The notes under the pieces are model-generated. The model was not told the DNA's origin. It saw nothing but the letters and a program-made list of their open reading frames with translations, and made no database searches. Positions 19,383-34,408 of a DNA stretch of 40,873 bases are shown in pieces. The position numbers and the translations under genes are program-made. Source of the DNA: an uncultured Verrucomicrobiota bacterium (GTDB lineage Bacteria > Verrucomicrobiota > Verrucomicrobiia > Chthoniobacterales > SZAS-18); the NCBI GenBank assembly GCA_937859745.1, contig CALMAQ010000187.1:1-40873 (forward strand). The letters are read 5' to 3'. Positions within the stretch are counted from its first letter, which is position 1. Each line of letters opens with the position of its first letter.

Positions 19383-20240
19383 ATGCCGCACCGCCATGCT
19401 CGACGATCACTCCCTTCGTCGTCGGTGCGTCGAATCGCCCTGATTTTGCCCGCGTGCCATGAGGAGGAAACCATCGGGCCGGTGCTCGATGAACTGCGCG
19501 ACAAACTCGATTCCGGGCGGGAATGGATCGTCGCCGTGGGTGTCAACGGCTCTCCCGTCGGGGCGGACCGCACCGCTGCTCTTGCCCGCCAGCATCCGTT
19601 GCGTCCGGTGGTGGCCGAAACGCCCGCGCAGGGCTACGGCTTCGGGTGTCAGGCGGTAATCGACCGACTGGGAGAAATCGGAATCATCCCCGACGCCTAC
19701 ATTTTTTTCGCCGCCGACGGTGCCAATGATCCGTTGGACCTAGCCCGGCTCTTGGCTGCCTACGAGCGCGGCAGCGACTTCGTGCTCGGTTGCCGTACCC
19801 GGTTTCGGCAACGTGGAAACATCGCCGTCATGGGTTGGTCTCACCTGCTCGCCAACCGTTTGCTGGGCGCATGGTGCGGATGGCTGACGCGCCGTTGGTT
19901 CCACGACATTGGTCCGTTGCGGCTGATCGAGCGCGCCTTGTTCCATCGTCTTTGCTTGCGCGAATGGACCTTCGGCTGGACCATTGAGGCACAGGTAGTC
20001 GCCGCGCAACTTGGGACCGTGATGACGGAGGTCCCCGTGAGCGAACGCCCCCGCTTGGCCGGACAGCAAAAGGTGTCCAAAGTCAACTGGTGGCGTACCC
20101 TTTCCATCGGCTGGCAAATTGCGCGGGCTGGCTGGCGCGCGAGTTGTCGTCCCCTGGCGTATATCCAGGAGCGCACCTCGGTTCCCGCTCGGGATGAGAA
20201 TTTGCCCGGCCGCATTTCCGAACCCGCCGACGTGCGCTGA
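19383..20240 (+). CDS. Family 2 glycosyltransferase (DPM-like)
   Basis: The GT-A fold signatures are RIALILPACHEEETIGPVLDEL and the sugar-nucleotide site FFAADGANDPLDLARLL. A later GNIAVMGWSHLLANRLLG and the HDIGPLRLIERALF motif are as in dolichol/polyprenyl-phosphate sugar synthases. There is no C-terminal membrane domain, so it is probably peripheral. The gene begins four bases after the GT-C gene ends, implying one operon. A plausible role is to load a sugar onto a lipid carrier for the GT-C partner; whether this serves arsenosugar lipids is inference. Confidence 0.8.
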   Translation: MPHRHARRSLPSSSVRRIALILPACHEEETIGPVLDELRDKLDSGREWIVAVGVNGSPVGADRTAALARQHPLRPVVAETPAQGYGFGCQAVIDRLGEIGIIPDAYIFFAADGANDPLDLARLLAAYERGSDFVLGCRTRFRQRGNIAVMGWSHLLANRLLGAWCGWLTRRWFHDIGPLRLIERALFHRLCLREWTFGWTIEAQVVAAQLGTVMTEVPVSERPRLAGQQKVSKVNWWRTLSIGWQIARAGWRASCRPLAYIQERTSVPARDENLPGRISEPADVR

Positions 20241-20266: not shown

Positions 20267-22699
20267 ATGCCGATCCCCTCCGTGCTCGCCAAAGTTTTCC
20301 TTCCGATCACCGGCTACACGCATTGGCTGCACACGCGCTGGCCGGCGGGCACGGTGGAGCATCTGCCGGAGGTTGGTCCCGACGGCGAAACAAAATTGCC
20401 GGGCGTGCGGATCGTCGGCGATCTGAGCGGCATCCCGCTGCTAAAATTTTCCGCCGACACCGGGGCGCGGGCGGTGAGGGCGATTCTGCGTGAACCAGAC
20501 TTCAAAAAATCGGGCGGCGGCAACAAAGATACGCTTGACCTTGCCATCCTCGGCGGCGGCGTTTCGGGGATTTCGGCGGCGTTGGAAGCGAAGAAAGCCG
20601 GGTTGAAGTTTCAGGTGTTCGAAGCGGCAGAGCCGTTCACGACCATCGTCAATTTTCCGAAGGCCAAGCCGATCTACACTTATCCTACCGACATGATCCC
20701 GTCGGGGGAGATGCAGTTCCACGCCGATATCAAGGAGGCATTGGTCGAAGAATTAGAGCGGCAACGCAAAGACGCAGGGATCGAGGTGACGAACGCGCGC
20801 GCGGACCGGGTCGAGTCGAATCGTGATGGGGTGACGGTCCACTTTGCCGGTGACAATCCACTACCCGATGCGAAGGCGCGCCGGGTGATTGTCGCTATTG
20901 GCCGAAGCGGCGATTTTCGGCGTCTCGGCGTGCCGGGCGAAGACTCCGACAAAGTGGCCAACCGGCTGCACGATCCCGCTGACTTTGCCGGGAAGAACGT
21001 TCTGGTGGTCGGCGGCGGCGACTCGGCATTGGAAACCGCAATTGCGTTGGGTGGAGCAGGTGCACGCGTGACGTTGAGCTACCGCAAGAAAGAGTTCAAC
21101 CGACCCAAGAGTGAGAACGTCGAGAAGCTCAAGAAGCTGGGGTGCGAACCCGACGCAGGGGGGCAGGTGGAGCCGCCGCAATCCAACAAGGCAGGCACCG
21201 CCGCGACGACGGCCACGCAAAATGGCAAGAAAGGCGGCGCGCTCGCGCTCGCGCTGGGCAGCGAGGTGGTTCGCATCGAAGCGGCCAGCGTCACGCTCAA
21301 GGACGAAAACGGCGGGCGCACGATGGACAACGACGCCGTGTTCACGATGATTGGCCGGGATGCGCCGTTGGAGTTTTTCCGCCGCTCGGGGCTGCCGATC
21401 CGCAACGAATGGACGTGGTGGCGCGTGCTCGGGTGCGTGGCGTTCGTCTTGTTTTGCTTCGCCTTCTACCATTGGAAGGGCGGGCACCCGCAGGAACTGA
21501 CGTTCGGCGGAAAATCGCTCCAGCAGATTGCCGGGGAACGCCATTGGTTCCCGCTCAACCTGCCGGGCGTGTTGGAACGCTCCGGGGGAAGGCTTGCGGA
21601 GTGGTCCAACCGCGAAGGAAATCTCCTCCACACGATCAAACTGGGGCTGGGTGACGCATCGTGGTACTACGGGTTCCTCTATTCTGTCGTCGTGGTCATC
21701 TTCGGAATCCGTCGTATCCGCCGCCGACGGACGCCTTACGTGAAGTGGCAGACGATCACGCTGATGGCGATCCAGGTCGTGCCCCTCTTCCTGCTGCCGG
21801 ACCTCCTCTTGCCGTGGATGGGCCGCAACGGTTGGTTCGGGCCTGGACATCCGTTGCGCGGGCTGGCCGATCACCTTTTCGAGAGCTACGACGGCATGCG
21901 CGGCCACGAACGCGCGTACTGGCGCGCCATCGGCTTCCTGCTCGCGTGGCCGCTGCTCATCTACAACGTGTTCACGGAACAACCCAACTACGCCTGGCTG
22001 GGCATCTCCTTCGTGCAGACGTTCATGATTATCCCATTCATCGTCTGGCGCTGGGGCAAGGGAGCCTATTGCGGCTGGCTCTGCACTTGCGGCGCGCTGG
22101 CTGAAACCCTCGGCGACGCCCAGCGCCGCAAGATGCCCCACGGCTCCGGCTGGAACCGCCTGAACATGCTCGGGCAGGTCGTCCTCGCGTTCGCTTTCGC
22201 GCTTCTGGGCCTGCGCGTCGCGGGCTGGGTGATGGGTCCGCAGTCGCTGCCGTCCGCGTGGTTCAAGCGCGGTTTCGAGACGATCCCGTATTTCAATTAC
22301 CAATGGGGCGTCGATCTGTTCCTGAGCGGCGTGCTGGGAATCGGATTGTACTTCTCGTTCAGCGGGCGGACGTGGTGCCGGTTCGCCTGCCCGCTGGCGG
22401 CGCTGATGCACATCTACGCGCGGTTTACGCGGTTCCGCATCTTCGCGGACAAAAAGAAATGCATCTCGTGCAACGTCTGTACGAGTGTCTGTCATCAGGG
22501 CATCGACATCATGAGCTTTGCCAACAAAGGCGAGCCGATGGCCGACCCGCAATGCGTGCGTTGTTCGGCCTGCGTGCAGGAATGCCCCACGGGCGTGCTT
22601 TCGTTCGGACGCTACGGCGGCAACGACGGCAAGGAAATCCTCCTCGACTGCCTGCCCGCCTCGCCCGTGCTCATGAAGGAACACGACCGAGGCAAATAG
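20267..22699 (+). CDS. FAD/NAD(P)-binding oxidoreductase fused to a membrane polyferredoxin
   Basis: An 810-residue fusion. Residues ~85-385 are a thioredoxin-reductase-like flavoprotein: AILGGGVSGISAALEAKKAG for FAD and VLVVGGGDSALETAIALG for NAD(P), without an obvious CxxC redox pair. Residues ~388-680 form several membrane helices with CGWLCTCGAL and CRFACPLAALM, as in NapH/NosR/CcoG-type membrane ferredoxins. The end carries two [4Fe-4S] motifs (CISCNVCTSVCHQG and CVRCSACVQECPTG). It probably passes electrons from NAD(P)H across or into the membrane. The partner may be the exported molybdoenzyme at 26389, which has no other electron-transfer subunit here. The nucleoside hydrolase follows after four bases. 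Confidence 0.82.
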   Translation: MPIPSVLAKVFLPITGYTHWLHTRWPAGTVEHLPEVGPDGETKLPGVRIVGDLSGIPLLKFSADTGARAVRAILREPDFKKSGGGNKDTLDLAILGGGVSGISAALEAKKAGLKFQVFEAAEPFTTIVNFPKAKPIYTYPTDMIPSGEMQFHADIKEALVEELERQRKDAGIEVTNARADRVESNRDGVTVHFAGDNPLPDAKARRVIVAIGRSGDFRRLGVPGEDSDKVANRLHDPADFAGKNVLVVGGGDSALETAIALGGAGARVTLSYRKKEFNRPKSENVEKLKKLGCEPDAGGQVEPPQSNKAGTAATTATQNGKKGGALALALGSEVVRIEAASVTLKDENGGRTMDNDAVFTMIGRDAPLEFFRRSGLPIRNEWTWWRVLGCVAFVLFCFAFYHWKGGHPQELTFGGKSLQQIAGERHWFPLNLPGVLERSGGRLAEWSNREGNLLHTIKLGLGDASWYYGFLYSVVVVIFGIRRIRRRRTPYVKWQTITLMAIQVVPLFLLPDLLLPWMGRNGWFGPGHPLRGLADHLFESYDGMRGHERAYWRAIGFLLAWPLLIYNVFTEQPNYAWLGISFVQTFMIIPFIVWRWGKGAYCGWLCTCGALAETLGDAQRRKMPHGSGWNRLNMLGQVVLAFAFALLGLRVAGWVMGPQSLPSAWFKRGFETIPYFNYQWGVDLFLSGVLGIGLYFSFSGRTWCRFACPLAALMHIYARFTRFRIFADKKKCISCNVCTSVCHQGIDIMSFANKGEPMADPQCVRCSACVQECPTGVLSFGRYGGNDGKEILLDCLPASPVLMKEHDRGK

Positions 22700-22703
22700 C
22701 CCG

Positions 22704-23621
22704 ATGGACGTCTGGATCGACACCGACCCGTCCATCGGCGTGCCACTTCACGAAGCCGACGACGGCTTCGCGTTGATCCAGGCATTCCACAGCCCCGAAC
22801 TTCACCTCCGGGGAATCAGCACGACCTACGGCAACGCCGGTCTTGCCACGACCACGCGCATCACCCGCGAAATGGCCGCGCGTTTCGGCGGTCCCGCCGG
22901 GATCAACGACACCCACGTCTTCCCCGGAGCTGCCTCCGCCCACGATCTGGGAAAACCCACCGCCGCCACCGAAGCCCTCCGCGCCGCGCTCGCCGAACGC
23001 CCGCTCACCTACCTCGCCCTCGCGCCGCTGACCAACCTCGCCACGTTCCTCACGCTCCACCCCGAGGCCGCGCGCCGCATCGAGCGCGTCATCTTCGTCG
23101 GCGGGCGCACCCCCGGCGTCCGCTTTCGCGCCGGACGCTGGAACCCCTACGAATTCACCGACGGCAATTTTCACAAGGACAACGCCGCCGCGGCGATCCT
23201 CCTGGCCGTCGGCTCGCCGTTGACGCTCGTGTCTGTGGAATGCGCCCTCCAACTCCTCCTCACCCCGCGCGAACTCACCCGCCTCGGCCGCGAGGGCGGC
23301 GATCCCGGCTGTTACCTCGCCACGAAAGCCCGCCTCTGGATGAATCTCTGGTGCTTCTGCTTCGCCGTGCCGGGCGCGGCGATCTTCGATTGTTTCGCCA
23401 TCCTGGCCGCGACGCACCCGTACCTGCTGGCAAGCGAGAAACGTTACGCGCAGATTTCTCCGGCGACCCATCATGACCAAGTGCCAACACCCCGGCAGAT
23501 TCATCTGATGGCGAGCCGCGAACCGCCAACATCGGGCGAGAGGGCGGTGACTTTTTGCTCCGAACCACTCTCCGAAGCACGCGAGGTGATCCTTGCGCGG
23601 CTGCTAGGCGCTACGGGTTGA
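22704..23621 (+). CDS. Nucleoside hydrolase (IUNH-like)
   Basis: The start MDVWIDTDPSIG and the DDGFALIQAFHSPEL segment match the DTDxGxDDxxAL Ca-binding pocket of inosine-uridine nucleoside hydrolases, with a short insertion. GISTTYGNA, TYLALAPLTNLATFL and FTDGNFHKDNAAAAILL continue the family pattern, and a Ca/ribose-binding region is near the end. The enzyme would hydrolyse an N-glycosidic bond. In an ArsS/ArsM cluster the logical substrate is 5'-deoxy-5'-dimethylarsinoyl-adenosine, releasing adenine; this is inference. The stop overlaps the convergent arsS gene by 11 bases. Confidence 0.83.
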   Translation: MDVWIDTDPSIGVPLHEADDGFALIQAFHSPELHLRGISTTYGNAGLATTTRITREMAARFGGPAGINDTHVFPGAASAHDLGKPTAATEALRAALAERPLTYLALAPLTNLATFLTLHPEAARRIERVIFVGGRTPGVRFRAGRWNPYEFTDGNFHKDNAAAAILLAVGSPLTLVSVECALQLLLTPRELTRLGREGGDPGCYLATKARLWMNLWCFCFAVPGAAIFDCFAILAATHPYLLASEKRYAQISPATHHDQVPTPRQIHLMASREPPTSGERAVTFCSEPLSEAREVILARLLGATG

Positions 23622-24588
23622 CAAGCGCACCGCCGCAACTGCTCCCGGCTCCGGCGGTGCAGGCGTAGCAATGGTCGCCGGTGAGGATCTCCCGGTTCTC
23701 CACCAGCGCGGGGTCAAGATCCCACAGCGACAGACCACGTCCGCCCTGCCCATCGCGCCATTGCATCTTGAGCATCTGGTTGAAGTCGCAGTCGAACACC
23801 TCGCCCGTCCAACTCACGTTGATCGTGTCCCGGCACATCAGCCCCTCGACCGCCGCCGGATTGAACGATTCCACCAGCAAATCCATGTACTGCCCGAGCT
23901 GGTTGCTGTGGCGCAGGTAGGAGGCGAACCGGCTCACGGGAACGTTGGTGATCGTGTAGAGACGGTTGAACACGATGCCGAAATGCGCCCTGAGTTCGCG
24001 CTTGTAGTCCTCTTCCAGTTCCGCCTGCGGACCGGGCAGGGAAATGCCCTGCGGATTGTAAACAAGGTTCAGCGGCAACGCCTCGTCGCGTCCGTAGCCG
24101 AGGCGGTTGAGCAGTTGGAGCGCCTTGATGCTCGCGTCGAACACGCCGTCGCCGCGCTGGGCGTCCACGTTCGCCACCGAATAACACGGCATCGACGCCA
24201 CGATCTCCACGCGGCGCTCGGCCAGGAACTCGGCCATGCCGTCGAAGGCGGGTTCGAGCAGGATCGTCAGGTTGCAGCGGTCCATGACATGGCGGCGCGG
24301 AGTCATGGACGTGAGACGTTCGACGAAGTAGCGGAAGTCGGGGATCATCTCGGGCGCGCCGCCGGTCAGATCGACCACAGGGATGTCGGTGTGTTCGAGC
24401 CAGCCGAGGATGCGGTCGGCGGTCTCGCGCGTCATGATCTCCTTGCGCTTGGGGCCCGCGTTGACGTGGCAATGGGCGCACGTCAGGTTGCAAAGCTTGC
24501 CGACGTTAACCTGGAGGACTCTCGTGCGTGTCCGCCGCAACGGGGCGTTGTGACCGGCCAAGGTGGTGTCGAACCGGTTGAGAGCCAT
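23611..24588 (-). CDS. arsS: Arsenosugar biosynthesis radical SAM protein ArsS
   Basis: The radical-SAM motif is CNLTCAHCHVNAG (CxxxCxxC). LTGGAPEM is the SAM-binding GGE-like strand, and MDRCNLTILLEP and CDFNQMLKMQW follow. The C-terminus CYACTAGAGSSCGGALV is the ArsS (DUF3641/TIGR04167) signature. In many homologues the Cys of SSCGG is selenocysteine; here it is Cys. ArsS transfers the 5'-deoxyadenosyl group of SAM to dimethylarsenic, giving the arsenosugar precursor. At 325 residues it is full length. It is divergent from the PiT gene with 140 bp between them and convergent with the nucleoside hydrolase. Confidence 0.95.
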   Translation of the reverse strand: MALNRFDTTLAGHNAPLRRTRTRVLQVNVGKLCNLTCAHCHVNAGPKRKEIMTRETADRILGWLEHTDIPVVDLTGGAPEMIPDFRYFVERLTSMTPRRHVMDRCNLTILLEPAFDGMAEFLAERRVEIVASMPCYSVANVDAQRGDGVFDASIKALQLLNRLGYGRDEALPLNLVYNPQGISLPGPQAELEEDYKRELRAHFGIVFNRLYTITNVPVSRFASYLRHSNQLGQYMDLLVESFNPAAVEGLMCRDTINVSWTGEVFDCDFNQMLKMQWRDGQGGRGLSLWDLDPALVENREILTGDHCYACTAGAGSSCGGALVNP

Positions 24589-24728
24589 TGCTCAAGCTAC
24601 GACCCGGGGAGGTTTCTGGCAAGGAGGACGACGCCCGATGCATCCAGCGGCGCGATTTCACCGGATTGCAACAGAATCGTCACAATTCACTGGTCGCCAG
24701 CGGACAAGTTCACTACATCAGAAACGCC

Positions 24729-25859
24729 ATGATCTTCATCCTGCTTCTCCTTGCCACGTGTTTCCTGGCGTTTTCCAACGGTGCGAACGACAACTTCAAG
24801 GGTGTCGCCTCCATCTACGGCAGCGGCACGGCGGGTTACAAGGTGTCGATCTCGTGGGCAACCGCGACGACCTTCGCCGGGTCGATCACCTCAATCCTTC
24901 TCGCGCAGGCACTGCTGAAGAAATTTTCCGGCAAGGGGTTGGTGCCAGACTCACTCGTCGGATCGGAGTATTTTCTTTTGGCGGTGACGCTCGGCGCGGG
25001 GCTGACCGTCATCCTCGCCACGCGGCTGGGTTTTCCCATTTCCACGACCCACGGTTTGCTGGGTGCGCTGATCGGTGGTGGATGGGCAGCGGTGGGTTTC
25101 GGCGGGGTGGACCTCAGCGCGCTCGGGAAAAGCTTTGTGATACCGCTGCTGCTCAGTCCGGTCATCGCCGTCGCGCTGGGTGCGTTCCTGTACGTGATCT
25201 TTCACTCCGTGCGCTACCTGCTGCGCATCCCGAAGGAATGGTGCGTGTGCATCGGCCAGGAAACGCGCGTTTCGCCGATGCCTGCCGCGGACGGGATGCT
25301 GGCCATGCGCACGATGACCGCGCCGCTGTTGGCGGTAGAGGGTGAAACCATCACCAGTTGCCAGGAACGCTACGGCGGCGCGGTTGCCGGCGTGGACGCG
25401 CAAACGCTCGTCGACACGGGCCATTTCCTGAGCGCGGGCGTGGTCTCCTTCGCGCGTGGCCTCAACGACACGCCGAAAATGGCGGCACTCCTGCTGCTGG
25501 TAAAATGGCTCACGCCCGCGTCGGAGATCGGCATTGTGGCGGCGGCCATCGCCTTCGGCGGGCTGCTCGGGGCACGCCGTGTGGCGGAGACGATGAGCCA
25601 CAAGATCACGTCGCTCAATCCGGGGCAGGGTTTCACGTCCAACCTGACGACGGGGATCCTCGTCATCCTGGCGAGCACGTATGGGTTGCCGGTCTCGACG
25701 ACCCACGTTTCGGTGGGCGCGCTGTTCGGCATCGGCGTGACGACGGGGCAGGCAAACGTCAAGACGGTCATGGGCATCGTGCTGTCGTGGATCGTCACGC
25801 TGCCCTGCGCCGCGTTGATCGCGGGAACGATTTATTTCATGGTCAGCAAATTGCACTAA
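24729..25859 (+). CDS. PiT-family inorganic phosphate transporter
   Basis: I start at ATG 24729; the longer ORF start at 24588 would overlap the arsS start. The duplicated PiT signature is clear: [20 protein letters not shown] and [17 protein letters not shown], with [16 protein letters not shown] and [18 protein letters not shown]. It has about ten membrane helices and ~376 residues. PiT transporters import metal-phosphate and also arsenate, so in this cluster it may feed arsenic to the pathway. It is co-oriented with the arsenate reductase, 7 bp apart. Confidence 0.9.
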
Positions 25860-25866
25860 CCCGGCC

Positions 25867-26301
25867 ATGGCAAAGCAGAAAGTCCTGTTCGTCTGCGTCC
25901 ACAACAGCGCGCGCAGCCAGATGGCCGAAGCGTTCCTCAACGGAATGGGTGGCGACCGCTACGAGGCGGAAAGCGCAGGGATCGAACCGGGCAAGCTCAA
26001 CCCCGTGGTCGTCGAGGTGATGCGCGAAGCGGGGATCGATCTCGCCGGATGACCGACGAAATCCGTTGCGTCGATGATCGAGCGCGGCCCGTATTTCGAC
26101 TGCGTCGTGACCGTTTGCGACGAGACCAGCGCGGAACATTGCCCGGCCTTTCCGGGACCAGCCCGGCGGCTCCATTGGCCTTTCGCGGACCCGTCGAGCT
26201 TCACCGGCACCCCCGAGGAAAAACTGGCCGGCACGCGGCAGGTGCGTGATTCCATTCGTGAACGCATCGAAGCGTGGTGCGCTGCCGATGAAAACGCATA
26301 G
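25867..26301 (+). CDS. arsC: Thioredoxin-type arsenate reductase ArsC with an in-frame TGA at codon 62
   Basis: One frame encodes an LMW-phosphatase-like Ars[20 protein letters not shown] (P-loop with the nucleophilic Cys), [12 protein letters not shown] and, after the TGA at 26050-26052, [34 protein letters not shown] with the two redox Cys. Without the TGA it would be a normal 144-residue enzyme. The family normally has a variable residue at the TGA position, and no catalytic Cys is missing, so selenocysteine is not expected. A CGA to TGA nonsense change or a sequence error is simplest. The TGA sits in a hairpin (26048-26080). Translation could restart at ATG 26074, but that lacks the nucleophile. 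It follows the PiT gene and precedes the molybdoenzyme. Confidence 0.85.
26048..26080 (+). other. Hairpin spanning the in-frame TGA of arsC
   Basis: CGACG (26054-26058) pairs with CGTCG (26069-26073) around a 10-nt loop. The flanks GAT and ATC extend the stem with two mismatches, so 9 of 11 pairs form. Bacterial SECIS elements normally have the loop further downstream of the UGA, so this is a weak match. Confidence 0.3.
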
Positions 26302-26388: not shown

Positions 26389-28986
26389 ATGGCTTCTCCC
26401 GATGATCTCTCCGGCAGCGGGGTTTCCCGCCGCAAGTTCCTGCGCGAATCGCTGCTGGGCGCGGGTGCGCTCGGCACCCTTGGGCTGGCTCCCGCCTCTG
26501 CCCCCGCGGCCAACGAAGGCAACTACCCGGCGACGGGCGACGCGGCGAGCCAGCAGTTTGATTTCACGAAGGCTTCGAGCGCGCTCCAGGCCGACCGGGT
26601 GGTGGACAGTGCCTGTCAGTTCTGCAATTCGCTCTGCCGTCTGAAAGTCCACCTCAAGGATGGCCGGATCATTGATGTGACCGGTGAAACCGCTGATCCC
26701 GTCCAGGCCGGGGGCCTGTGCGTCAAGGGTGAACAACTCATGACCCAACTCGTCTACAACCGTTTCCGGTTGAAGACGCCGCTCAAGCGGCTGGACGGTG
26801 AAAAAGGTTCGCCGGACTCGCGTTTCGAGCCGTGTTCGTGGGACGAGGCCCTCGACATGGTTGCCAGGAAGTTGCTTTCCCTGCGAGATGCAGGCGAGGC
26901 TCACACGGTTGCCAACAAGACCAGCGGCCGGCTAGCGCGGGGCGTTGGCTCGTTGGCGGGCCGATTCTTCACCTTGCTCGGCAGTCCCAACGACACAGAC
27001 GTAGGCCCGGTGTGCAACGACGCGGGCGGCAACGCGCTGGCCTGGACCTTCGGCCTCGGCAATTTCACCAACGGCTACGGCAAGGATGAATCCACCGGCA
27101 AGGAAGACCTTGGCTCGGCCAGATTTTTCCTGTTTTTCGGCACCAATCAGGCCGAAACGCACCCGGTCACCTTTTCCTACCTGCTGCGTTCGCGGGCCGC
27201 AACCGGCGCGAAGCTCGTCGTGGTCGACCCGCGCCTGACGCCCACCGGCGCGCAGGCCGATGCCTGGATCGCGCCGAAGCCCGCCACCGACCTTGCGCTG
27301 GTGCTGGCGATGCTCCATCACATCATTGACCGGGGATTGTACGACGCGGCATTCGTCGAAAAATGGGTGCTCGGGTTCGAGGAATTGCGGCGGCACGTCA
27401 CGGAAAAAGGTTACACCCCTGACTGGGCGGCGGGTGTCACCGGCTTGCCAGCGGCGACCATCCGTCAACTGGCCGAGGATTATGCGACGGCCAAGCCCGC
27501 TGCCATCTTCTGCAACGCCGGAATTTCGCACCAGATCGGCGCTTTCGACACCTACCGCACGCTCGCGTTTTTGGCGGCGATCACGGGCAACGTTGGCGTC
27601 AACGGCGGTGGGTGCAACTTCATGCACAACACCTGGCCGGGCGACCTGAAGCTGCCGGCCGTCGGCCCGGTGGCAACGGCCAAGCCCGCGCCCGCGCTGC
27701 CGGAAACCGAGCACCCGGAAGTCGTTGATCAACCCGCCGCCACGCCGAAAAAGAACGCCGCTTTACCGGTTGGTCCGGATTGGTTCGCGGAGGCAATTCT
27801 CCACGGCAGGCCCTACCCGCTCAAGGCGGTGATCATGGAAGGCAACCCGGCATTGGCGTCGGCGAACGCGAACAAGGTCAAGGAAGCCTACCGCAAACTC
27901 GATTTTCTCGTGTACACCGGGCTGTTCATGGAGGAGACGGCGTACTATGCCGACATCATCCTGCCGGTGTGCAGCGGCTTCGAGATGGAGACGGTTTACA
28001 TGCGCCGAGACGACCGGGCGATCCGGTGGCAGCATCAGGCCGTCGCGCGAGTGGGGGAATCCCGGCCTGACTGGGAAATCTGGATCGACCTCGCCGCGGC
28101 GATGGCCCGGCACGATCAGGTGAACCCGCCCGAATACTGGACCGACAACCTGCGCTCGGAGTGGCGCGACTACAAAAAACTCTGGAATGTGTTCTTGGAG
28201 AACACTCCCGGCATGGGTGGCATGACCCAGGAACGCATGGCCGCGCGCACCGAACCATTACGCTGGCCGTGCCCAACGCAGGAGCATCCCGGCGTCAGCA
28301 CTCTTTACCTGGAAGGGCCCTCTTGGGAGGCCGCCGTCACTGCGTTAAACCCGGCACACAAGGGGAAACGGTTCCTCACGCCCAGCGGCAAGGTGGAGAT
28401 ATTCACACCTGAAATCGACACGAAACTAGCGCGGGTGGGGCATGGCGCGCTGCCGGTATTCTATACCCATCCGGAGGTCACAGGCGGTTTGCCGACGGTC
28501 GAGTACACCGATGAACTGGTCGAAAATCCGGTCAATCCGCAGTCCCTTACACCCAAGGTTCGTCTGGGCGTGGCAAGGAGCGGCGGGCAGTCCGCTGAGT
28601 TCCCGCTGATGGGGATAGCAGGTCGTCCGAGCGTGGTGCATTTCCACTCGTTGACGCAATGGACCTACACCGGCAAGCAGATGAACGGTGTCCGGCTGGT
28701 GCAGATTCACCCGAAAGCTGCCGGGCGCGCCGGCATTGCCAACGGCGACGAAGTGACGGTGAGGAGCCCGCGCGGATCAATCAAAGCGACCGCGCTGTTG
28801 TGGGATGGCATCCGCGAGGACACGATCTTCGTGCCGATCTCCTTCGGGCCGGCGCAGAAGATGGCCGAGGAACTCGGCACGCCGTTTTATGAGTCGGTCA
28901 ACACGTTGTTGGACGACCGGTACTTCGATAATTTGTCCGGTCAGCAGGCATTCAAGTGTTTCGCTTGCCGGGTGCAGAAGGTCTAG
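26389..28986 (+). CDS. Tat-exported molybdopterin oxidoreductase (DMSO-reductase superfamily)
   Basis: This 865-residue protein has a twin-arginine signal (SRRKFLRESLLGAGALG), so it is probably periplasmic. A [4Fe-4S] site follows (CQFCNSLC, then GGLCVKGEQ). GPVCNDAGGNALAW probably supplies a Cys ligand to Mo, as in the PsrA/PhsA/ArrA-like clade. Later molybdopterin-binding motifs are FFGTNQAETHPV, VVDPRLTPTGAQAD and VIMEGNPALAS. The C-terminal dinucleotide-binding domain includes RSPRGSI. No four-cluster ferredoxin or membrane-anchor subunit adjoins it. Reductase for sulfur, nitrogen or arsenic oxo-compounds is possible; methylated-arsenic reduction is inference from context. It is not similar enough by eye to name as ArrA or ArxA. 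Confidence 0.85.
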   Translation: MASPDDLSGSGVSRRKFLRESLLGAGALGTLGLAPASAPAANEGNYPATGDAASQQFDFTKASSALQADRVVDSACQFCNSLCRLKVHLKDGRIIDVTGETADPVQAGGLCVKGEQLMTQLVYNRFRLKTPLKRLDGEKGSPDSRFEPCSWDEALDMVARKLLSLRDAGEAHTVANKTSGRLARGVGSLAGRFFTLLGSPNDTDVGPVCNDAGGNALAWTFGLGNFTNGYGKDESTGKEDLGSARFFLFFGTNQAETHPVTFSYLLRSRAATGAKLVVVDPRLTPTGAQADAWIAPKPATDLALVLAMLHHIIDRGLYDAAFVEKWVLGFEELRRHVTEKGYTPDWAAGVTGLPAATIRQLAEDYATAKPAAIFCNAGISHQIGAFDTYRTLAFLAAITGNVGVNGGGCNFMHNTWPGDLKLPAVGPVATAKPAPALPETEHPEVVDQPAATPKKNAALPVGPDWFAEAILHGRPYPLKAVIMEGNPALASANANKVKEAYRKLDFLVYTGLFMEETAYYADIILPVCSGFEMETVYMRRDDRAIRWQHQAVARVGESRPDWEIWIDLAAAMARHDQVNPPEYWTDNLRSEWRDYKKLWNVFLENTPGMGGMTQERMAARTEPLRWPCPTQEHPGVSTLYLEGPSWEAAVTALNPAHKGKRFLTPSGKVEIFTPEIDTKLARVGHGALPVFYTHPEVTGGLPTVEYTDELVENPVNPQSLTPKVRLGVARSGGQSAEFPLMGIAGRPSVVHFHSLTQWTYTGKQMNGVRLVQIHPKAAGRAGIANGDEVTVRSPRGSIKATALLWDGIREDTIFVPISFGPAQKMAEELGTPFYESVNTLLDDRYFDNLSGQQAFKCFACRVQKV

Positions 28987-28998
28987 CGAATTGCGCTG

Positions 28999-30066
28999 AT
29001 GATTCGTAAAGCCGATTTCCTTGCCCTCCATCCCGGCGTCTATTTTCTCGATGTAACCGATGTCCCCACGCTGAACGTGTATCTCACGGACGGAGGAAGG
29101 CTGGGTCCGCTCGAAGCCTTGATCAGCGTGGAAAAAGCGGGCGAGGGCAACATGAACTGCACGGTGCGGATCCGCACCTCGTCGGGCAGTTTTATCCTCA
29201 AGCAGTCGCGTCCCTGGCTGGAGAAATATCCGCAGATTTCCGCACCGTTCGACCGGGCATTGATCGAAGCACGTTTTTATCACCTCATCTCTGCAACAGA
29301 GGCGGTGGCAAGCCGGATGCCCCGGCTGCTGTGGGCGGACGAGCAGGCGCACACCCTGGCCCTCGAAGACCTCGGCCCGGCGAGCGATTTCTTCCCGCTC
29401 TACGCGCGTCAGATCGCGCTGTCCGATACCATTCTCTCCGCCTTGGTGAATTATCTCGCCGCCCTGCACCGACTGGCACCGGAACGGGGCGAGGATCGCA
29501 AACGATTCACGAACCACGAAATGCGGGTGCTCAATCACGAGCACATGTTTGCATTGCCGCTACGCGAGCCGAATGGCCTCGATCTCGACGCTCACACGGG
29601 GACACCGGGCCTGACCGCGGTCGCTGCTTCGCTGAAGGCTGATGCCGCTTATGGGCAAGCGGTGGCTGCGTTGGGCGAGCGGTATCTGCACGGAGAGGGC
29701 GAAAATTTGTTGCACGGTGATTTTTTCCCCGGCAGCTTTCTGCGAACCGCAGCGGGTGTAAGGATCATCGACCCAGAATTCTGCTTTTGCGGTGACGCGG
29801 AGTTGGACCTGGGTGTTCTGGCCGCACATCTGTTGCTGGCCGGTGAACCTACCGACCGCGTGGAGAGCATCTTATCTCTCTACCACGCGGCGGGCGGCGG
29901 TTTTTCTTCTGCGTTGGTCCGGCAGTACGCCGGGGTCGAGATTATGCGCCGATTGATCGGCGTGGCGCAGATCCCGACTCTCAAAGCCGGCCTTGCGCGC
30001 AAGACGGATTTGCTGGCGTTGAGCCGGCAACTGCTGCTGGCACCGGAGCAATCGTTCTCCGTTTAA
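28999..30066 (+). CDS. Methylthioribose-kinase-like (APH-fold) kinase
   Basis: VEKAGEGNMNCTVRIRTSSG is the GDGNxN-type nucleotide loop of MtnK, followed by FILKQSRPWLEKYP (catalytic Lys; MtnK has VKQALPYVR) and FDRALIEARFY. The catalytic part LLHGDFFPGSF and IIDPEFCFCGDAELDLGVLAAHLLLA matches the MtnK HGD and DPEF motifs. The protein is 355 residues, slightly shorter than typical MtnK. MtnK phosphorylates C1 of 5-methylthioribose. In this cluster the freed 5-dimethylarsinoyl-ribose would be an isosteric-type substrate, so a role in activating the arsenosugar for glycosyl transfer is attractive. It starts 12 bp after the molybdoenzyme. Confidence 0.75.
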   Translation: MIRKADFLALHPGVYFLDVTDVPTLNVYLTDGGRLGPLEALISVEKAGEGNMNCTVRIRTSSGSFILKQSRPWLEKYPQISAPFDRALIEARFYHLISATEAVASRMPRLLWADEQAHTLALEDLGPASDFFPLYARQIALSDTILSALVNYLAALHRLAPERGEDRKRFTNHEMRVLNHEHMFALPLREPNGLDLDAHTGTPGLTAVAASLKADAAYGQAVAALGERYLHGEGENLLHGDFFPGSFLRTAAGVRIIDPEFCFCGDAELDLGVLAAHLLLAGEPTDRVESILSLYHAAGGGFSSALVRQYAGVEIMRRLIGVAQIPTLKAGLARKTDLLALSRQLLLAPEQSFSV

Positions 30067-30075
30067 CGCGGCTGT

Positions 30076-31236
30076 TCAACAGCAACTGTCGGCATCGCAG
30101 CAATTACTGGCCCCGGTGGTTACAGTGTAATCCTGGCCCTTCGTCTCTTTCGGGTGGCGCAGGGCAGCAGCGCGCGGTCGGTCGAATGGTTTCGCTTGCT
30201 CCAGCGGAACCGTCTCACGAGGTTCGACGAAGTCGAATTGTTCCGTGTACGGCGCCTTGCGGTACAGATTGTAGGTCTTGTCGCACACCGCGTACCGGCG
30301 TCCGCGCTCCATCCGGTGGCCGTCATCGTCGAGCACCTCCTTGAAAGGCCCCTTGTACACGACCGCCTGATTGCGTTCCAAACACGGCCCCTGCTTGCCC
30401 TTGAACGCCTCGATAGTCACCGAGCGGAACTCGATTCCCTCGACCGTTTGCCAAGGGTCCACGTCGCGCTTGAGAACTTGAATCCCATAGAATCCCGCCT
30501 GCTCGAACGCTTCAAGGAAGCCGTCTTCGGTCAACGCTCCCGAGATGCAGCCGCTCCAGAGTTCCGGGTCGTCTTGCAGGTGCGCCGGGCTGGCTTCGTC
30601 GCTGACGATGTCGGAAATCACCGCGCGACCACCGACTCGGAGCACACGGAAAATCTCCTCGAAAAGCCGTGGCTTGGATCGGGAATCCACGAGGTTGAGC
30701 ACGCAATTGCTCACCACCACGTCCACGGATTCATCCGCGACGAGCGGGTGTTTGAGCCGCAGTTCGGCGGCGAGTTCATCCGCCTTGAGGAACGAGGCGG
30801 CGTCGGTGATGGGTCGCTCGCGCAGGACGGAGTCGAAGCGTTCCAGGTCAAGACCGAGGTCCTGGATGCGCCCTTTGCGGAATTCCACGTTACCGTAGCC
30901 GATCCGCTCCGCGACCACCGGCGCGTTGCGCCGGGCCACGTCGAGCATCTCATCGGTCATGTCCACTCCGATGACCTTGCCCTGCGCGCCCACGACCTGC
31001 GCTGCAATGAAGCAGATTTTTCCCGTGCCGCTGCCCAAGTCCAGGACGGTCTCACCGGAGCACAGGTATTGGCTCGGATCGCCACAGCCGTAATCGCGCT
31101 CGATCACCTCTTGGGGGATGACCCTCAGATACTGCGGGTCGTATTCGACCGGGCAGCACAAGGCAGCCTCACGGGCCTGTGCGCCGCTGGCGTAACGTTC
31201 TTTGACGGCGGACTCCGGATTGATGGTCGTGTGCAT
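30076..31236 (-). CDS. arsM: Arsenite S-adenosylmethionine methyltransferase ArsM
   Basis: I take ATG 31236; the track ORF extends far upstream through a shadow frame. The protein has 386 residues. The SAM-binding motif VLDLGSGTGKICFIAAQVV is followed by VIGVDMTDEMLDVARRNA. The arsenite-binding cysteines of the family are present: ALCCPVEYDP, YGCGDP, VVSNCVLNLV and SGCISGAL. The C-terminus ends CCDADSCC, an extra Cys cluster. ArsM methylates As(III) to mono-, di- and trimethyl forms, the step before ArsS. It is convergent with the kinase (9 bp apart) and divergent from the DUF547 gene. Confidence 0.93.
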   Translation of the reverse strand: MHTTINPESAVKERYASGAQAREAALCCPVEYDPQYLRVIPQEVIERDYGCGDPSQYLCSGETVLDLGSGTGKICFIAAQVVGAQGKVIGVDMTDEMLDVARRNAPVVAERIGYGNVEFRKGRIQDLGLDLERFDSVLRERPITDAASFLKADELAAELRLKHPLVADESVDVVVSNCVLNLVDSRSKPRLFEEIFRVLRVGGRAVISDIVSDEASPAHLQDDPELWSGCISGALTEDGFLEAFEQAGFYGIQVLKRDVDPWQTVEGIEFRSVTIEAFKGKQGPCLERNQAVVYKGPFKEVLDDDGHRMERGRRYAVCDKTYNLYRKAPYTEQFDFVEPRETVPLEQAKPFDRPRAAALRHPKETKGQDYTVTTGASNCCDADSCC

Positions 31237-31344: not shown

Positions 31345-32073
31345 ATGAGAAAAAGCCTGCTTGCTCTGCTGCTTAGCCTTGCTTTGGTTTCGGTTTCCCG
31401 CGCGGAGGATGCCTGGACCGAGGATTACAATCGCCTGCTGGCAAAATACGTGACGCCGAGCGGGGTGAAATACGCCGTGTGGCATGACAATGCCGCCGAC
31501 CGGGCCTCGCTTGCGAAAGTAGTCGATGCCATCGCCAAAGAAAAACCCACCGGCGGCAAAGACGAAAAACTCGCTTTCTACATCAACGCTTACAACGCCA
31601 ACATCCTGGCAGGAGTGCTCGACCGGTATCCCATCAAGACGATCCGCGACATCGCCCCGCTCTTTGGCTTTTTCACACAGGATCGCATCACGGTGGCGGG
31701 CGACAAGATGAGCTTCAACCATCTGGAAAAAGACATCATCCACGGCTTCGGCGAGCCGAGGATGCATTTCGTGCTTAACTGCGCGAGCGCGAGCTGCCCG
31801 CCGCTGCTCGACAAGGCATTCGCGGCCGAAACCCTTAAAGTGGAGATGGACCGGGCGGCGACTGCCTTTCTCAACGACAACCCGCGCGGGATCGAGGTGA
31901 GCGACGGAGGCAAGAAGGTCGAGGTCTCGAAAATCTTCGACTGGTATGCCGGTGACTTTCAGGCTTCGGGGGGGGTGGTCGCCTTCATCGACAAGTACCG
32001 CCAGCCACCGTTGCGGGGCGACACCAAACTTTCTTTTCAGGATTACAACTGGAGCCTCAATGCCGCCGACTGA
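31345..32073 (+). CDS. DUF547-family exported protein
   Basis: The N-terminus is a Sec signal peptide (MRKSLLALLLSLALVSVSRA). The body carries the DUF547 signature: FYINAYNANILAGVLDRYP, FFTQDRITVAGDKMSFNHLEKDIIHGFGEPRMHFVLNCASASCPPL, then FLNDNPRG and SKIFDWYAGDF. DUF547 proteins recur in arsenosugar clusters but have no established reaction as far as I know. A metal or peptidase-like role has been suggested for the fold. It is 242 residues and overlaps the radical SAM gene by 14 bases, so translation is probably coupled. Confidence 0.85.
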   Translation: MRKSLLALLLSLALVSVSRAEDAWTEDYNRLLAKYVTPSGVKYAVWHDNAADRASLAKVVDAIAKEKPTGGKDEKLAFYINAYNANILAGVLDRYPIKTIRDIAPLFGFFTQDRITVAGDKMSFNHLEKDIIHGFGEPRMHFVLNCASASCPPLLDKAFAAETLKVEMDRAATAFLNDNPRGIEVSDGGKKVEVSKIFDWYAGDFQASGGVVAFIDKYRQPPLRGDTKLSFQDYNWSLNAAD

Positions 32074-33571
32074 CCTCGCTTCCCCGGCGGCCCTTCCGGT
32101 CGCTCCCATCGATCCTTGCATTGGCCTGCCGACGCATCCCGGCAAGTGGCGTGCCCGCTGGCAGGCGTTCCGGCATCCTATCGCGGGCGAGAAGGCCGAG
32201 TTGCTGCGTAGCCGCTGGGCGTTGTTGCCGCCCGAGCTGAAGACACCCAACCAGATCAGTGGGCGGCACCTGACCCACTGCGGATTCACGACGGGCGCGA
32301 GCTATTGCTCGTTTCATTGCACGCATTGCTACCTGCCCAAGAACGCCAATCAGGTGCCGATGCCTTCGCTGGCTCAGATGAAGGAGCAGATCGACGCCAA
32401 CCGTCGGTTCCAGGGGCCGGGCGGCGGCTTGCAACTCACCGGCGGCGACGTGGCCGACGCCTACTGGCGCAGCGGGCGGCAGGACGAACTCGTCGAGATC
32501 GTCCGTTACGCGATCAAGACGGGCCTCGTCCCGATGCTCATGACCCATGGGCAAACGCTCATTGAGCATCCGGAATTTCTGGAAAAGCTTATGGTCGAAG
32601 GTGGCTTGCGACAGGTGGCCGTCCACATCGACATGACCCAGGCCGGGCGGCATGGTTATCCCATTGGCCGGGTCAAGAGCGAGGCCGATCTGCACCCGGT
32701 CCGCGAGGCTTTCACGAAACTCGGCCTGGACCTGCGCGCAAAAACCGGGCTGCCGTTGGAGTTCGCCCATAATTGCACCGTGACGGGTCGCAACGTGGAG
32801 TTCGTGCCGGAGATCGTCCGCTGGGCCTTGGAAAGACCCGAACGCACCTACCTTTGGCGGCTCTTTTCCTTCCAGCCGGAAGCCGACACCGGGCGTACTT
32901 ATTTTTCTGCAACCCCGGCGACTCCCACCGCCGCTTGGCAAAAACTCTGCGAGGGCACGGGGCTGCCGCTGGAACGGGAATTTTCTATTTTTGGCCACCC
33001 CGACTGCAACTCGTGGACGCCGTTGCTCGTTTCGCGGCGGTCAGGGCGTTTCATCGTGTTTCCGCCGCAGGATGCGCGCACGAAACAGCTTTACGAGGAG
33101 TTGCTCGCCAGGGTGGGCGGCGTTTCCTTCGTGTCTGACGACGCGCGTACAACGCCCTTCCGGTTGCTCGGGATTTTGTTCCAAAATCCGCTGCTCATCG
33201 TTCGACTGCTCGCGCATCTTTCCTGGCTTCTGCTCACGGGAAGAATCCCCGCCGAGTTCATCGGCGCGCTTGCGGCGGGGAAAGCGCACACGGTCGGCTT
33301 CGGCATCCACAACTTCATGGACGCCGTCCAAGTCGCGGACGCGCCAAACAACCGGACGATCCAATCCCGGCTGGATTCCTGCGTGTTTAAGGGTGCGGTC
33401 AAGAACCGGCAAAGCGGAGAATGGGAAGCTGTTCCCATGTGCGCCATGAACCAGCAACGCTGGGGCGATGTTTACGAAGAGCGTTTGCAAGACCCGCTCT
33501 TGGCTCGCGAGGCGCAAGCGACAAGCCCGGCGTCGGCGGATCGACCCGAGTCAATCCTGGAAACACGGTAG
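32060..33571 (+). CDS. Second radical SAM protein of the arsenic cluster, function unknown
   Basis: The start ATG 32060 lies inside the end of the DUF547 gene. The radical-SAM Cys motif is CSFHCTHCYLPK (CxxxCxxC), with LQLTGGDVADAYW as the GGE-like strand. Around residues 200-400 the sequence continues as a TIM-barrel-like fold (VAVHIDMTQAGRHGYPIG). The ~150-residue C-terminal part contains DSCVFKG and CAMNQQRW but no clear SPASM cluster. At 503 residues it is longer than ArsS and unrelated to it beyond the core. Hypotheses include a methylation, carbon-carbon or lipid-modification step. It is not a copy of ArsS. Confidence 0.78.
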   Translation: MPPTDLASPAALPVAPIDPCIGLPTHPGKWRARWQAFRHPIAGEKAELLRSRWALLPPELKTPNQISGRHLTHCGFTTGASYCSFHCTHCYLPKNANQVPMPSLAQMKEQIDANRRFQGPGGGLQLTGGDVADAYWRSGRQDELVEIVRYAIKTGLVPMLMTHGQTLIEHPEFLEKLMVEGGLRQVAVHIDMTQAGRHGYPIGRVKSEADLHPVREAFTKLGLDLRAKTGLPLEFAHNCTVTGRNVEFVPEIVRWALERPERTYLWRLFSFQPEADTGRTYFSATPATPTAAWQKLCEGTGLPLEREFSIFGHPDCNSWTPLLVSRRSGRFIVFPPQDARTKQLYEELLARVGGVSFVSDDARTTPFRLLGILFQNPLLIVRLLAHLSWLLLTGRIPAEFIGALAAGKAHTVGFGIHNFMDAVQVADAPNNRTIQSRLDSCVFKGAVKNRQSGEWEAVPMCAMNQQRWGDVYEERLQDPLLAREAQATSPASADRPESILETR

Positions 33572-33625: not shown

Positions 33626-34408
33626 ATGGTAGCGCGCTTCACCTCGATGGTTGTCTCGGCGGTAACCGGTCCACGTGTGACCGCAGGTCCTCCGGAGCCA
33701 TCCGACAAGGCGGAAGCCACGATCAGTATCATCGTGCCATGCTGGCGGGGTGACGCCGTGCCGCCTTCCCTTGCAACACGCTGGCTGGAGTACCCGGGCG
33801 TCTGCGAAATCATCGTGGCAACCGCCGATAAGGAGATGGCGACACAAGACGGATTGCCCGGGTTGCGCACGATCCACTGTACCCGTCACGGCCGGGGGAA
33901 CCAGATGAACGAGGCGGCCCGCACGACGACGGGCGATATCCTGCTGTTTCACCACGCGGATACGGAGTTGGCCGCAACGCATCTGCACAGCTTGCAAATT
34001 GCGATGGCGGCTGATTCGACGCTCGGCGGCGGTGCATTCCGACGCCAGTTCGATGAGCGCCACCCGCACCTCCGTTGGCTCGAACCCTGGGAAGCACTCC
34101 GCTGCCGCCGCTTTGGTCCGCTTTTCGGCGATCAATCCATCTTCGTACGGCGAACGGTATTCGAGGCACTTGGTGGGTTCGCTGACTTCCCGTTAATGGA
34201 AGACGTGGATTTTTCCTGTCGGCTGCGGCGTCATCAAAGGATTGCCTTGCTGGAACCAGCAATCCGATCTTCCACGCGCAAGCATTTCCAGCAAGGACGT
34301 TGGCGGACAACGTTTACCAATGCTTTTTTTCTCTTACTTTTCGTTTGTGGAATGTCTCCGTCTCGCTTGCACGCTCTGTATTATCGTCACACCGCAGCGA
34401 TTGATTGA
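33626..34408 (+). CDS. TIGR04283-like arsenosugar glycosyltransferase
   Basis: The body resembles the TIGR04283 glycosyltransferases that accompany arsS: ISIIVPCWRGDAVPPSLA, TRHGRGNQMNEAARTTTGDILLFHHADTELA (HADT in place of a DxD) and FGPLFGDQSIFVRRTVFEALGGFADFPLMEDVDFSCRLRRH. The C-terminus has a hydrophobic stretch (NAFFLLLFVCGMSPS). ATG 33626 gives about 30 extra N-terminal residues; ATG 33647 is also possible. Its donor and acceptor are not established. It is the last gene of the block, 54 bp after the radical SAM gene. Confidence 0.85.
   Translation: MVARFTSMVVSAVTGPRVTAGPPEPSDKAEATISIIVPCWRGDAVPPSLATRWLEYPGVCEIIVATADKEMATQDGLPGLRTIHCTRHGRGNQMNEAARTTTGDILLFHHADTELAATHLHSLQIAMAADSTLGGGAFRRQFDERHPHLRWLEPWEALRCRRFGPLFGDQSIFVRRTVFEALGGFADFPLMEDVDFSCRLRRHQRIALLEPAIRSSTRKHFQQGRWRTTFTNAFFLLLFVCGMSPSRLHALYYRHTAAID

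Follow-up and report, generated by a model that had tools for sequence, protein, structure and literature searches.

The open literature that we searched appears to assign no enzyme to the steps that lead from the ArsS product to a finished arsenosugar, and no kinase assigned to arsenosugars was found there. The locus analysed here, in which a kinase with the motifs of methylthioribose kinase (MtnK) lies among arsenosugar genes, raises the question of whether such a kinase may serve in those steps. The window (the whole stretch of DNA that was analysed, 40,873 nucleotides from an uncultured Verrucomicrobiota bacterium) shares the ArsM and ArsS steps with the Synechocystis ArsS/ArsM arsenosugar pathway (cited in PMC12159101 and PMC8552651), whose later steps are likewise unassigned and for which no kinase was found in the open papers that we searched. 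Concrete candidates for these steps are the insertion-type nucleoside hydrolase (NH) and the kinase described here and, in other genomes, MTAP-like phosphorylases. The genes concerned are:

19383..20240, plus strand: GT2 glycosyltransferase with weak AglJ similarity, first gene of the run toward the NH, with a 26 bp gap to the next gene
20267..22699, plus strand: YpdA/NapH-like flavin and Fe-S protein, which recurs in ArsS clusters (L067, L069, L079, L082)
22704..23621, plus strand: NH of the insertion type (DTDPSIGVPLHEADDG), IU-type (PF01156, E 5e-33), beginning 4 bp after the preceding gene
23611..24588, minus strand: ArsS, arsenosugar biosynthesis radical SAM enzyme (TIGR04167, 432 bits, cut-off 300)
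24588..25859, plus strand: PiT-type phosphate transporter ORF (PF01384, E 2.9e-60), true start probably downstream
25864..26298, plus strand: frame for an ArsC-like reductase, interrupted in frame by a TGA at 26050-26052
26389..28986, plus strand: Tat-type molybdopterin oxidoreductase (PF00384), 12 bp upstream of the kinase
28999..30066, plus strand: MtnK-related kinase, predicted to be a ribose-type 1-kinase (TIGR01767, 103 bits; 2OLC, E 2.6e-11; invariant KQ, D258, E260 and RR)
30076..31236, minus strand: ArsM-like arsenite methyltransferase, assigned from sequence, with homologues beside ArsS elsewhere (for example L033, L043, L072, L078)
31946..33571, plus strand: radical SAM protein (PF04055), whose linkage with the kinase is kept in L001 (86%)
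33626..34408, plus strand: TIGR04283-type glycosyltransferase (174 bits, just under the cut-off of 182)

The strong ArsS match, with ArsM and the TIGR04283-type gene nearby (the latter at 174 against 182 bits), marks this as an arsenosugar cluster. Judged by gene spacing, the molybdopterin oxidoreductase and the kinase are likely to be co-transcribed; the NH, 5.4 kb from the kinase, probably belongs to a different transcription unit. The oxidoreductase (26389-28986) is distant from formate dehydrogenase, PhsA and ArrA, and among the remaining ArsS and kinase loci that were searched, none gave a clear match to it. In the ArsC-like frame, which is otherwise intact, the TGA is codon 64; either the gene is broken or the sequence contains an error.

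The kinase ORF (28999-30066) runs from an ATG through a stop codon and encodes 355 aa. The motifs from which the first-pass annotation had argued for an MtnK-like enzyme are all present, as GEGNMN at 48-53 (corresponding to GxGNxN), KQ at 68-69, HGD at 239-241 and DPEF at 258-261, and to these we add a twin-arginine motif, RR at 317-318, absent from that annotation. Among 32 aligned relatives K68, Q69, D258, E260, R317 and R318 are invariant, and at least 90% of them keep G48, G50, N51, N53 and H239-G240-D241. Pfam assigns the protein to APH (PF01636, 48 bits); its only PDB sequence relatives with E below 0.1 are two MtnK structures, 2OLC (B. subtilis MtnK) and 2PYW, and the NCBIfam MtnK model TIGR01767 matches at 103 bits (E 1.8e-29), under the equivalog cut-off of 275. 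The AlphaFold2 model (pLDDT 95) has the bilobed MtnK/PsiK-like kinase fold of the APH clan, and its best solved structural matches are MtnKs (2PYW: Z 36.5, 334 residues, rmsd 2.4, 21% identity). The likeness to MtnK is well above chance.

In B. subtilis MtnK, ribose O1/O2 is bound by D233, Mg by D250/E252 and O2/O3 by R340/R341 (PMC2194712). In our alignment these residues correspond to D241, D258/E260 and R317/R318 of the kinase, in which the MtnK active-site motifs HGD, DxE and RR are thereby all retained; the RR pair is more telling than the motifs listed previously. Since RR, D241, D258 and E260 are kept, the sequence predicts a ribose-type substrate and placement of the phosphate on O1.

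The pocket around C5 is different. The W-loop Trp and the hydrophobic C5 cap are semi-conserved among MtnK. In B. subtilis numbering the cap over the 5-methylthio group consists of W74, L180 and L345 (PMC2194712); in the aligned kinase a gap stands opposite W74, H182 opposite L180 and V322 opposite L345, and the cap is not retained. Near the aligned C5 pocket lie K76, N179, H182 and Q324, each conserved in at least 90% of the 32 aligned sequences, and because these pocket residues are polar and family-wide, it is probable that the entire kinase family handles a polar C5 group. Such a pocket would be compatible with an arsinoyl group, and a hydroxyl or phosphate would fit equally well; MtnK itself tolerates bulky C5 groups (PMC2194712). 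An arsenic-specific pocket was considered and rejected, since the residues aligned to the MtnK C5 cap are common, family-wide, to non-arsenic relatives. Only an IPTL loop that follows Q324 sets the pocket region of the window and L001 apart, and near that position L208 likewise carries an insertion.

With MtnK (TIGR01767; 2OLC, 2PUN, 2PYW) the kinase shares the fold, the G-loop and the KQ, HGD, DPE and RR residues, but identity is 21-22%, the score lies under the TIGR01767 cut-off, the Trp at the tip of the W-loop is absent, L180 of B. subtilis is replaced by H182, HGD is followed by [FY][FY] where MtnK has LH, and no MtnA was found in the genome that carries the kinase. Identity as a canonical MtnK was rejected on the score, the missing Trp and the MtnA result. 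In the tree the 48 kinase relatives form one group, from which canonical MtnK (L026) is separated by a very long branch. The kinase represents a separate, undescribed MtnK-related family, for which the label 'MtnK' is misleading.

A conventional salvage function is also poorly matched by the genome. Searches of the window genome (G000, a 90.6% complete assembly, the unassembled part of which such searches miss) found neither MtnA (E 1e-30) nor a canonical MtnK, and MtnA was detected in just 7 of 49 kinase genomes; the first-pass annotation had named mtnA/mtnB-type genes elsewhere, together with activity on methylthioribose alone, as the sign of a normal salvage kinase. The genome does encode a true MTAP (L169, 305 bits against a cut-off of 275). 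A role in methionine salvage is weak because MtnA was not found and because MTAP bypasses the kinase. DrdK provides a further precedent, in that a 5-modified ribose 1-phosphate is reached through a nucleosidase and a kinase; this enzyme has 59% similarity to MtnK, accepts both methylthioribose and 5-deoxyribose, and is clustered with isomerase and aldolase genes (PMC6079011). Neither a DrdK-type isomerase nor a class II aldolase is among the annotated genes around 28999-30066. That the kinase phosphorylates methylthioribose or 5-deoxyribose in methionine salvage or a DHAP shunt would agree with its MtnK fold and ribose-binding residues, with the breadth of DrdK and with the radical SAM enzymes of the cluster, which could yield 5'-deoxyadenosine; set against the MtnA searches, the MTAP bypass, the absent W-loop Trp, the polar C5 cap and a score far under the MtnK cut-off, we consider this role quite improbable.

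Members of the kinase family occur in Bacteroidota, Verrucomicrobiota, Planctomycetota, Acidobacteriota and a few other groups. Of 395 Bacteroidota genomes drawn evenly and taken as an unbiased sample, 16 have the kinase, and in 11 of these 16 loci it lies directly beside an N-glycosidase (six NHs and five ADP-ribosylglycohydrolases, ARH). A long insertion, variable in length, separates DTD from DDG/DDA in all ten kinase-linked NHs and in none of the 11 unlinked NHs from ArsS genomes; the same insertion is found in the window NH 5.4 kb from the kinase, in the genome's second NH (61% identical, encoded elsewhere) and in the NH of the relative G257. The module in which a sugar kinase follows a hydrolase is recurrent and well supported, and the window NH belongs to the kinase-paired NH subfamily. 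The analogy drawn by the first-pass annotation, of a nucleosidase followed by a kinase, gains from this recurrent pairing with window-type NHs and from the retained ribose-1-phosphorylation residues. The window NH is without a signal peptide, which fits a cytosolic substrate. It also lacks the His that one canonical relative has ahead of the C-terminal Asp, so that its removal of adenine is less than certain.

A TIGR04282-like (CofC-like) gene lies at most 5.1 kb from the kinase in 6 of the 16 unbiased loci, a pairing with a chance probability of about 4e-8 if three such genes per genome are assumed, the loci representing three or four lineages only. An uncharacterised kinase family comes to light, with N-glycosidases as recurrent partners and CofC-like TIGR04282 genes as frequent ones. 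In three loci from genomes without ArsS (L177, L182, L184) a TIGR04282-like gene, an ABC importer, a cytosolic insertion-type NH, the kinase, TonB and SusD stand together, and this module is an uncharacterised uptake and activation pathway.

How far is the family tied to arsenic? Co-occurrence with ArsS across the family was rejected: there is none in the 395 Bacteroidota, where ArsS is present in 5 of the 16 kinase genomes and in 151 of the 379 others (Fisher p 0.61), and only a borderline excess in the 387 genomes of the home phylum (2/7 against 20/380, p 0.054). In the ten other genomes that have both genes, the kinase was not seen within about 10 kb around ArsS. Close arsenic linkage was seen in the genus only (the window and L001), with a looser case in Pareuzebyella. 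L001 comes from a likely congener, apparently the genome G810 of the same genus; there the block is inverted, yet the kinase still has ArsM (85%), the radical SAM gene (86%) and TIGR04283 (61%) as its neighbours. Elsewhere, L023 has the kinase about 2-5 kb from TIGR04282, a PNP, an ArsM-like gene and TIGR04283, with ArsS elsewhere in the genome, and L009 has the order TIGR04283-kinase-TIGR04282 in a genome in which ArsS is not present; TIGR04282 and TIGR04283 near the kinase are consistent with a sugar 1-phosphate made for activation. The arsS linkage of homologues, by which the first-pass annotation would have judged its proposal, is not seen in the same-family orthologues L085, L208 and L209 (three genomes; G257, G812, G813), whose surroundings are non-arsenic. 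Nor do arsS-linked homologues form the clade for which it had suggested looking: a single clade of arsenic-linked kinases was rejected, the window being nearest to L001, then to the non-arsenic L085 and the NH-linked L025, and falling in no starred branch of the kinase tree, so that arsenic linkage exists within the genus and in looser cases rather than widely. Searches for TIGR04282, which is the nucleotidyltransferase candidate, gave no match in the window genome (E 1e-5) or in that of L001, both of which are incomplete assemblies. The arsenic role proposed at first pass is accordingly weakened by a family untied to ArsS, by a pocket that does not point to arsenic and by the TIGR04282 result.

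Comparison with other ArsS clusters nevertheless suggests where the NH and the kinase might act. Those of G131 and G210 have the order DUF547-ArsS-ArsM-YpdA/NapH-MTAP-like-TIGR04282; behind the YpdA/NapH-like gene they carry the MTAP-like gene and then TIGR04282, and the window carries the NH, 4 bp behind its YpdA/NapH-like gene. Because the NH occupies the MTAP-like position, NH and kinase could replace the phosphorylase, and by analogy the two would give the same sugar 1-phosphate. Methionine salvage has parallel alternatives of this kind, MTAN/MtnK and MTAP (PMC2194712). MTAP-like phosphorylases stand next to TIGR04282 in the ArsS clusters of L082 (13878-14711), L079 (13868-14635) and L074 (11991-12758), and are candidates for removing adenine from dimethylarsinoyl-adenosine. 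They resemble the NH-kinase pair in pathway position and in yielding a sugar 1-phosphate from a nucleoside, but do so by one-step phosphorolysis with an unrelated fold, whereas hydrolysis and ATP-dependent phosphorylation would be used here. The replacement logic is not general, since L023 and L187 carry a PNP as well as the kinase.

We propose, tentatively, that an MtnK-related ribose-type 1-kinase has been recruited to arsenosugar synthesis, acting after the NH on 5-dimethylarsinoyl-ribose. We infer for it an arsenical substrate, a 1-phosphate product and a later use of that product: the insertion-type NH would strip the ArsS product (5'-deoxy-5'-dimethylarsinoyl-adenosine) of its adenine, the kinase, whose family members would usually act downstream of a sugar-freeing N-glycosidase, would move the gamma-phosphate of ATP to O1 of the freed 5-dimethylarsinoyl-ribose, and the arsenical sugar 1-phosphate would feed glycosyl transfer. 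The substrate is plausible, at roughly equal odds with general nucleoside salvage, a possibility to be taken as seriously, in which a ribose-type salvage kinase lies in the arsenic cluster by chance and, with the genome's two insertion-type NHs, recycles ordinary or modified nucleosides, taking no part in arsenic metabolism. The second of these NHs (61% identical) is indeed encoded elsewhere, most kinase relatives are in genomes or loci without ArsS, the pocket residues are family-wide, and in Bacteroidota loci NH and kinase are accompanied by TonB/SusD or ABC importers, in the manner of nutrient uptake; yet in the window and L001 rearrangement has not parted the kinase from ArsM, the radical SAM gene and TIGR04283, and the NH lies tightly behind a gene typical of ArsS clusters. 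A polar pocket with conserved K76, N179, H182 and Q324 would also suit a phosphate or diphosphate, and ARH adjoins the kinase in 5 of the 16 unbiased loci and in many further ones, as would be expected of a kinase for another N-glycosidase product, ADP-ribose-type or some other 5-substituted polar ribose; we hold this to be improbable for the window, which shows an NH but no ARH, the ARH-linked kinases being mostly in branches outside its group. A dedicated 5-dimethylarsinoyl-ribose 1-kinase, which with the unusual insertion-type NH replaces phosphorolysis in arsenosugar synthesis, seems to us rather unlikely. Such an enzyme would be to our knowledge the first kinase assigned to organoarsenic metabolism.

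A single strand of L187 (4561-10596) carries the kinase, an ADP-ribosylglycohydrolase, a rhodanese, TIGR04282, a PNP, DUF547 and TIGR04283 in a genome in which no ArsS was detected; by this example the 'arsenosugar' naming of TIGR04282 and TIGR04283 may be too narrow.
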